Assembly: GCF_029910095.1 (NCBI RefSeq)
Contig: NZ_CP094526.1
Coordinates: 4,650,001-4,714,000 of the forward strand
From: Bradyrhizobium sp. ISRA464
GTDB lineage: Bacteria; Pseudomonadota; Alphaproteobacteria; Rhizobiales; Xanthobacteraceae
Length of the DNA: 64,000 nt
Direction of reading: 5' to 3'
Positions within the stretch are counted from its first letter, which is position 1. Every line of letters begins with the position of its first letter. Under the pieces are notes generated by a model. The model ran no database searches and was not told the DNA's origin. It worked only from the letters and a program-made list of their open reading frames with translations. A program made the position numbers and the translations under genes. Of the stretch, positions 8,766 through 63,633 are shown in pieces.

Positions 8766-8789
8766 AGTCGTGGAGATATGGCTTCGCGT

Positions 8790-9262
8790 TCTCGCGACGT
8801 GAATCGTCCGAGGTTTGCATTTCGTTCCGCCCTCTCATCAAGCAGAGGGCGCAGAGAAAGCCGGGTGCCGATCGCACCCATGGGTCCCGAGCAAATGGAA
8901 AGCTCGGGAGGTAGGACCACAGGTGAAACCGGAGCAATCCCGGCTTTCCCTGCGCGATGGGCTACGGCTTATACGTGCTCTCCCTGGCGAGACTGGGCTT
9001 TGTTGTCACCGTCTTTGCAAAAGCGCTTCGCGCTTTGCAAGGAGACACCTGCCACTAGGGCGTCAGGCCTGCACGACTTCACCGTCCGCCTCACGCATGC
9101 TCGTCAGTCACACGCTCGGCGTCCACCGCATCTCGACCCAACACTCGTGACGATCGCGAAGCGCCCCTCAAGCGGGTGAGACGGGCAATTCATACACTAA
9201 GTTGCACTTCTGGAAAACAGAAATATTTTTGATGCGGGGTCTTGCGCCGTCGGGCAAATCAG
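8790..9262. repeat. Large structured repeat element, copy 1
   Basis: About 470 bp matching 63132-63583 in the same orientation. It contains a long arm pair (8849-8865 with 8939-8955, 16 of 17 bp), an inner hairpin (8885-8892 with 8902-8909), and a third hairpin (9015-9026 with 9030-9040) followed by GGAGACACCTGCCAC. Where the copies differ in the stems, the differences are compensatory. Several short open frames cross it but none is a convincing gene. The 3' end (GTCGGGCAAATC) lies just upstream of the TSUP gene. It could be a non-coding RNA, a leader, or a mobile-DNA relic. Confidence 0.7.
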
Positions 9263-9295
9263 CGCTAGGGGCGATCAACGGGTCGGAGTACGCGC

Positions 9296-29053: not shown

Positions 29054-29141
29054 AGCGGGGAGCGTTTGGCAGGGAAAACGGACGCAATCAAGGGCGATTT
29101 GTCGCAATGCGGAATGGTCACAGCAAGCCATATAGGTATGG

Positions 29142-29201
29142 GAAGGACGACCTTCACCTCACCACACCACCAGCGGGGACGACCCTGCCTTATCCGGAGG
29201 G
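29142..29201 (+). promoter_or_regulatory. Candidate guanidine-II (mini-ykkC) riboswitch
   Basis: Two short hairpins with identical ACGA tetraloops: GAAGG-ACGA-CCTTC (29142-29155) and GCGGGG-ACGA-CCCTGC (29173-29188), 17 bases apart, then GGAGGG (29196-29201) and the exporter's ATG at 29208. Twin ACGR-loop hairpins just before the ribosome binding site are the hallmark of guanidine-II riboswitches, where guanidinium stabilises a loop-loop contact and opens the RBS. The downstream gene fits. Confidence 0.85.
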
Positions 29202-63003: not shown

Positions 63004-63131
63004 ACCGAAGCAGCCGCGAATCGATTCAACCAATTCCGCTTTAGGTCGCTGGCCATCGATCCGGCTCTCGTAGCGATGACAATCAGATCTCCTATTGAGC
63101 CATTGCGCAGCGTGAGGGCACAGAACCGCGA

Positions 63132-63583
63132 TCTCGCGACACGATCTGCCCGAGTCTTGCATCTCGCTTCGCCGCTCTGAAATCAGAGGGCGCAGGGAAA
63201 GCCGGGTGCCGATCGCACCCATGGGCCCTGTGCAGTGAAAAAAGCACAGGGGGTAGGACCACAGGTGAAACCGGAGACATCCCGGCTTTCCCTGCGCGAT
63301 GGTTTACGGCTTACTTCGTGCTCTCCCCGGCGAGACTTGGCTTTTTTGTCACCGTCTTCGCAAACACGCGTTCGCGTGCCTAGCGAGGAGACACCTGCCA
63401 CTGGGGCGTCGGAACCACACGACTTCACCGTCCGCCTCATGCGCACTCGTCAGTTGCGCACTTAGCGTCCACCGCATCCCACACCGCGTTCGTGACGATC
63501 GCGATCCGCCCCTCATCGGGTGAGACGGGCGGAGTCGTAGTGCTGAGTTGCCCGACGACGGAAGCAGAATTTTGCCCGTCGGG
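63132..63583. repeat. Large structured repeat element, copy 2
   Basis: Aligns with 8790-9262. Outer arms 63190-63206 and 63281-63297 pair over 17 perfect bp (GCGCAGGGAAAGCCGGG). The inner hairpin is CCCTGTGC/GCACAGGG (63226-63233, 63244-63251). A third hairpin has CACGC/GCGTG (63365-63369, 63374-63378) and TCGC/GCGA, followed by GGAGACACCTGCCACT. Shared unpaired blocks such as TAGGACCACAGGTGAAACCGG are strongly conserved. The element lies between the AhpD-like and marR genes. Confidence 0.7.
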
Positions 63584-63633
63584 TTGATATGTCGCAGGCG
63601 GCGCCGCCCGATTTGACTCGCGCCGGCGGCTAA

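Follow-up and report, generated by a model that had tools for sequence, protein, structure and literature searches.

Large structured RNAs such as HEARO (omega RNA), OLE and GOLLD extend over several hundred bases, adopt a nested fold and in some cases occur in many copies per genome. Smaller repeats are described within the genus Bradyrhizobium. Br-REP1 and Br-REP2 of Bradyrhizobium japonicum are presented in PMC5082802 as intergenic or 3'-UTR repeats able to fold as RNA, and Br-REP2 is said there, with data not shown, to be part of a larger repeat. The GTAG and CGTC REPs and BIMEs, palindromes of 20-40 bp, are given as present in Bradyrhizobium (PMC3733652). The suhB RNA is described as a multi-copy non-coding RNA of alpha-proteobacteria, with five copies in B. 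japonicum and one short conserved helix besides its terminator (PMC1273637).

The element analysed here lies twice, as copies A and B, in a window of 64,000 nucleotides (the whole stretch of DNA under analysis), which covers positions 4,650,001-4,714,000 of the 8,462,457-base single-contig genome of Bradyrhizobium sp. ISRA464. It shares with Br-REP1 and Br-REP2 the genus, the intergenic setting and the capacity to fold as RNA, but the consensus sequences printed for those repeats in PMC5082802 are short palindromes, unlike an element of ~490 bp. Br-REP1 and the 19-base piece of Br-REP2 taken from that source have no match in the window, both copies included, at up to 3 mismatches; an overlap of the element with the larger Br-REP2-containing repeat is possible. 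The REPs of PMC3733652 resemble the surroundings of the element, in that REP-like palindromes flank many copies (by eye) in the same genus, whereas the element itself has a nested multi-helix fold of ~490 bp in place of the tagged palindrome of 20-40 bp that marks a REP or BIME in that account. Like the element, suhB RNA is multi-copy and alpha-proteobacterial, but the suhB Rfam family has no match at the element. The element differs from HEARO/omega RNA, OLE and GOLLD in having no Rfam match and no nuclease or reverse-transcriptase gene among 10 neighbouring genes tested. A literature search, mostly outside subscription journals, returned no recognisable description of the element, the available part of PMC2443382 likewise being without one, and the ~490-base family is apparently undescribed.

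Limits, fold and strand of the element

The initial annotation placed the two copies at 63132-63583 and 8790-9262; both are present and near full length, and both are slightly longer than this (Table 1). Matches to TAGGACCACAGGTGAAACCGG (up to 3 mismatches) and to GGAGACACCTGCCACT (up to 2 mismatches) in the window are confined to copies A and B, and in neither case do any of 100 shuffles contain two matches. The inner hairpin is formed by CCCTGTGC and GCACAGGG in copy B (63226-63233 and 63244-63251) and by TCCCGAGC and GCTCGGGA in copy A, and the letters of both copies bear out the three compensatory pairs described between them. Beyond that description, the minus strand is the one that folds best, the fold comprises more than three hairpins, and the copies number in the dozens.

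Table 1. Features of the element in window coordinates. Helices are those of copy B; motifs are written as on the plus strand.
Feature	Position	Strand	Remarks
Copy B, candidate folded RNA	about 63112-63601	-	Fold z-score -6.86 (minus), -2.78 (plus); limits from BLAST span, profile match 63114-63595
Copy A, candidate folded RNA	about 8770-9270	-	Fold z-score -5.20 (minus), -2.56 (plus); profile match 8772-9270
Terminal hairpin, 3' end of folded strand	63133-63154	-	Alignment columns 24-41; helices 10 and 11, double changes at 3 of 4 pairs
Core helix arm, GCGCAGGGAAAGCCGG	63190-63205	-	Pairs with 63282-63297; helix 8, 98.5% of cells paired, double changes at 5 of 16 pairs
Apical (inner) hairpin with three compensatory pairs	63226-63251	-	Columns 118/136: CG57, GC16, TA6; columns 120/134: TA46, AT23
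Core helix, other arm, CCGGCTTTCCCTGCGC	63282-63297	-	Helix 8
Outer closing helix arm, GATGG	63298-63302	-	Pairs with 63469-63473; helix 1, 90.2% of cells paired, zero double changes
Long-range helix arm, ACGGC	63306-63310	-	Pairs with 63427-63431; helix 2, 94.0% of cells paired, double changes at 1 of 5 pairs
Variable hairpin (third hairpin of the initial annotation), limits approximate	63356-63389	-	Helix 6, 85.5% of cells paired, double changes at 8 of 8 pairs
Long-range helix partner arm, ACCGT	63427-63431	-	Helix 2
Outer closing helix partner arm, CCACC	63469-63473	-	Helix 1

The stems covary among 85 copies of the same genome (pair counts of the apical hairpin in Table 1). In this 85-copy table high scores also fall on some columns that form no pair, because the copies split into sub-families, and a test across lineages is therefore the stronger one. 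Among 47 divergent copies, taken in the minus orientation, 95.4% of the cells at 64 pairs are paired, and double-sided changes occur at 30 of the 64 pairs, against a shuffled mean of 16.1, with none of 500 shuffles as high. The 47 copies are a subset of 59 representatives, reduced by 5 with long inserts and by 7 from the own genome (that of the window), mostly cut-looking or divergent at the written 3' end. Structures slid out of register reach only 37-48% pairing, a control that favours the structure, as this was derived from the same 47 sequences. The outer closing helix is the least certain of the helices because it lacks any double change.

Folding of both strands over ~330 bases each gives the minus strand (window orientation) the better fold in 152 of 160 copies, with a mean energy of -162.0 vs -139.4 for the plus strand; flanks of equal length show a weaker skew, with the minus strand better in 108 of 161. 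The consensus energy of the 59-sequence alignment is -225.5 for the reverse complement vs -191.8. In the same alignment 741 G-U cells stand against 212 A-C cells, a count biased towards the minus strand, on which the structure was predicted; the energies and the z-scores of Table 1 are the fairer test. Both the representative set and the two-strand folding comparison exclude loci L035 and L036.

Selection on the fold of the element is strongly supported: covariation goes beyond the controls in a conserved fold, the mark of a structured non-coding RNA. The earlier proposal of selection on a folded structure stands on covariation, strand energies and z-scores, but its strand does not, the plus strand having been described where the minus strand folds better. 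The minus strand is predicted to form a large multi-helix RNA-like structure, as RNA or as single-stranded DNA; folded lagging-strand DNA would likewise account for the strand asymmetry.

A protein-coding element is ruled out, the mean number of stops per frame being 3.1-4.6 over 85 copies with no conserved reading frame; deletions of 1-2 bases are the commonest among these copies, and 5 copy-frames are free of stops. The longest frame of copy A has no match in Pfam or NCBIfam, and by the same two observations no transposase is encoded inside the element. A protein search with this frame returns only 13 database proteins, of which the named ones are all 'hypothetical', so current annotation hides the family. 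A known RNA is likewise rejected. Rfam 15 has zero families at the element at the gathering threshold, in agreement with the initial annotation, which recognised no named RNA family; three sub-threshold hits (E 1.6 to 6.3) lie over or next to copy B, and sub-threshold hits also occur near two foreign copies. The single gathering-level hit in the window lies elsewhere than the element, at 29139-29187 on the plus strand, and corresponds to a Guanidine-II (mini-ykkC) riboswitch (32.6 bits, threshold 32). In foreign locus L110 a chrB-b RNA match is seen at 267-316 on the minus strand, distant from the element. Simple scans of the minus strand, themselves uninformative, give no promoter-like site and one terminator-like site, inside copy A.

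Distribution, neighbours and turnover

The own genome (8.46 Mb) contains at least 86 copies. Allowing up to 2 mismatches, a core of 17 bases marks 85 places, its reversed control 0; once aligned, the 85 copies define an element of ~490 bp in which pairwise identity averages 0.79. The 86th copy, L322 at 762.2 kb, emerged from ten 20-kb samples taken between known copies, and further copies may therefore be missing; L322 and its neighbour lie close together and follow the orientation rule described below, and the addition of L322 changes little. In 464 kb sampled from this genome, 3 full-length copies and no relic are found, though relics are present in other genomes. Between 5.58 and 7.01 Mb a single listed copy is seen in 1.4 Mb, and ten 20-kb samples from this region hold no copy and vary in GC from 0.57 to 0.65, an unevenness as in acquired DNA.

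Outside this genome, an exact 21-base core retrieves 12 stretches from a named genome collection, all from Bradyrhizobium species. Hits to core model R1 under strict filters occur in 94 of 98 genomes from the genus (own genome included), leaving 4 without a match, and in 31 of 119 genomes from the family, in 14 of 47 genera (own genome and four more of the genus included). The highest per-genome R1 counts in these samples, 31 for the genus and 26 for the family, stand for at least 31 and at least 26. Seven more fully searched genomes carry 32 to 129 matches each, the number per genome elsewhere ranges from 1 to 129, and lineage-specific core variants occur among the copies. From the 4 of 98 genomes without a match and the spread of 1-129 it follows that the element is dispensable. 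No match is present in the plasmid and phage collections, which speaks against carriage by either.

By a simple purpose-made gene caller, 57 of 83 copies have a nearest gene on the written left side that points toward the element, and 9 lie between divergent genes; flank and gene comparisons reach 1-2 kb to either side. A flank in common with an own copy is found for 13 of 76 foreign loci, which makes 14 locus pairs, 12 of them with the same side and direction. Ten of the 85 own copies share a neighbour protein with a copy in genome G053 at 60% identity or more, a cut set afterwards on 23 locus pairs listed in all; 8 have it on the same side and strand and 2 do not. At shared sites, the site partner ranks 7th to 79th in sequence closeness among 83-85 own copies. 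Shared-site copies are not each other's nearest in sequence, which is most simply read as homogenisation of the copies within a genome, like that of rRNA genes.

The site of copy A holds the element in G006, a 3'-end piece of it in G010, and pieces in G003 and G004 that look remnant-like by eye. At the site of copy B, G010 has a diverged empty site with no visible target-site duplication, and no clean duplication is found at either of these two sites. The positions of the element are partly conserved and partly turned over.

Two candidate sponsors of dispersal are rejected. For a composite transposon between close pairs the reason is the gene content of two close pairs, out of ten fetched stretches: their 9 proteins are ordinary metabolic, transport and regulatory proteins or proteases. 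For a sponsor gene in low-copy genomes it is the 10 neighbours tested from 19 fetched loci, all ordinary, 7 of them in other genera. Loci L180 and L184, from two other genera, each lie near an SLT_2 transglycosylase gene, a neighbourhood that is possibly an old shared site.

Other sequences are joined to some copies. One is attached to the written 3' end of seven copies (L004, L005, L017, L022, L023, L093 and L097) and another to that of nine (L010, L014, L027, L029, L044, L058, L069, L073 and L079), and by eye both start at the same spot in the element. Beside joined or otherwise cut copies, 6 of 10 frames match transposases: DDE_Tnp_1_6 (L004, L027), IS481-like (L082, L087), IS110 (L072) and DDE_5 (L070). 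Several insertion sequences seem to use the element as a landing site. In L043, L047 and L074 the sequence departs abruptly from the family consensus after TTATAC in the core, likely through insertions.

Orientation and spacing along the chromosome

Clusters of parS-like sites place the replication origin at ~0.187 Mb in the own genome, at ~8.694 Mb in G053 and at ~2.864 Mb in G070; the origins rest on these sites, with G070 having two further single sites elsewhere and its length taken as 10.4 Mb. Within 2 Mb of the origin, the folded strand has the direction of the fork in 32 of 42 own copies, 34 of 42 in G053 and 16 of 21 in G070 (uncorrected p 9e-4, 7e-5 and 0.027), and in all three genomes it is the lagging-strand template for most of these copies. 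Over the whole chromosome the counts are 54 of 85, 65 of 89 and 34 of 56; beyond 2 Mb the own genome has no orientation bias (22 of 43).

The relative orientation of neighbours is also uneven. In four genomes, neighbours less than 40 kb apart have folded strands that point toward each other in 37 cases, away from each other in 1 and the same way in 21. The toward:away ratios are 8:0 (own), 10:0 (G053), 2:0 (G070) and 17:1 (G065), with 3, 12, 1 and 5 same-direction pairs, respectively. The minimum gap between toward-pointing neighbours is 7, 9, 22 and 8 kb in the same order, and between away-pointing neighbours 49, 58, 98 and 32 kb. This 40-kb limit was set with the data in view; permutation of orientation labels over fixed positions, which does without that limit, gives p 0.002 for the own genome (0.003 with L322 added), 0 of 20000 for G053 and 5e-4 for G070, and the observed value is reached by 1 of 84, 0 of 88 and 0 of 55 circular label shifts. 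The G065 figures rest on 92 listed of 129 matches. For G070, 58 hits enter the spacing analysis and 56 the permutation, picked by eye from 83 pattern hits against a reversed control of 65, and many of them, not all, are confirmed by core model R1.

Spacing is regular in part of the own chromosome. Between 0.6 and 5.6 Mb, 66 copies have a coefficient of variation (CV) of 0.57 (0.56 before adding L322) vs 0.98 for random placement, with 0 of 20000 as low; the whole chromosome has a CV of 1.13. Regularity is weaker in G053 (CV 0.81) and absent from G070 (CV 1.01). A full search of 800 kb at 3.3-4.1 Mb recovers all 12 known copies and no other; inserts of 3.2-3.6 kb split two of them, and a single 78-nt fragment is also present. 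The mean spacing of the 12 copies is 66 kb with a CV of 0.26 (P 4.5e-5), in a stretch picked because its known copies already looked regular.

Possible roles of the element

Action in cis over tens of kilobases is suggested by the fork-wise orientation and the one-sided spacing. The reading we prefer, with a probability of roughly 0.4, is that both window copies belong to one dispersed, long-lived family of ~490-bp intergenic elements, each retained, as folded RNA or as lagging-strand DNA, for a role on the scale of the chromosome as a polar boundary acting in cis; the role in cis is our own choice of mechanism. The minus-strand structure would act in the form of RNA or of folded template DNA on the lagging strand. 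Every copy would be a polar chromosome-scale element in cis, for example a boundary that anchors or halts something that moves outward from the origin over tens of kilobases, which might be loop-extruding SMC complexes or fork machinery. Copies facing each other could then sit close, and the side upstream of a copy would tend to stay free for ~40 kb. A polar boundary against a process from the origin would give both the orientation and the spacing rules, and the rarity of relics in the searched own stretches is unlike an ordinary decaying mobile family. Against this reading stand the dispensability of the element, the few neighbour genes shared with G053, the weaker or absent regularity in G053, in G070 and over the whole own chromosome, the 21 same-direction pairs (12 in G053), the even orientation beyond 2 Mb in the own genome, an own copy list with gaps, the relics in other genomes and the outcome of the promoter and terminator scans. 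It is rather doubtful that the family goes further and forms a bacterial counterpart of polar chromosome-domain boundaries, made of homogenised folded RNA or single-stranded DNA copies every 60-100 kb and polar towards origin-side traffic.

The main rival, a tentative but real possibility, is a non-autonomous mobile element that would move as a folded RNA or as single-stranded DNA with the help of an enzyme acting in trans. Insertion would prefer the lagging-strand template and gene 3' ends, existing copies would block nearby insertion and so set orientation and spacing, and the covariation would reflect successive active source copies. The wide range of copy number with its lineage-specific core variants, the few sites found in common with G053, the fork-wise orientation near the origin, the left-side genes pointing toward the element and the empty site of copy B in G010 all suit such an element. 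It sits less well with the few truncated copies in the searched own stretches, the ordinary genes beside the tested loci, the lack of a clean target-site duplication at the two sites and the lack of a match in the phage and plasmid collections; to our knowledge there is also no example of one-sided insertion immunity over ~40 kb. Folded single-stranded DNA on the lagging strand might instead serve as a priming or replication-restart site of the primosome-assembly type, loading a helicase in the fork direction. Although the lagging-template position of most copies near the origin in three genomes and the polar spacing agree with it, this is unlikely: nested folds of many helices are more usual in RNA, and the excess of G-U over A-C cells, counted on a structure predicted for that strand and so biased in its favour, points the same way. 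An ordinary multi-copy small RNA or REP-like 3'-UTR element, acting as a terminator or in RNA stability, would account for the intergenic position close to the 3' ends of genes, with REP-like palindromes frequently adjacent. It is nevertheless quite improbable, since the element is far larger than a REP, in 57 of 83 copies the gene that lies 3' of the folded strand is directed against that strand, and spacing rules over tens of kilobases are left unexplained.

In conclusion, if the copies are mobile, their one-sided spacing would amount to a kind of insertion control that is not known from any described element. If the copies are functional, as in the preferred reading of a polar boundary in cis, they would constitute an overlooked large RNA-like family in a widespread soil and symbiotic genus, with spacing and orientation rules that are directly testable.
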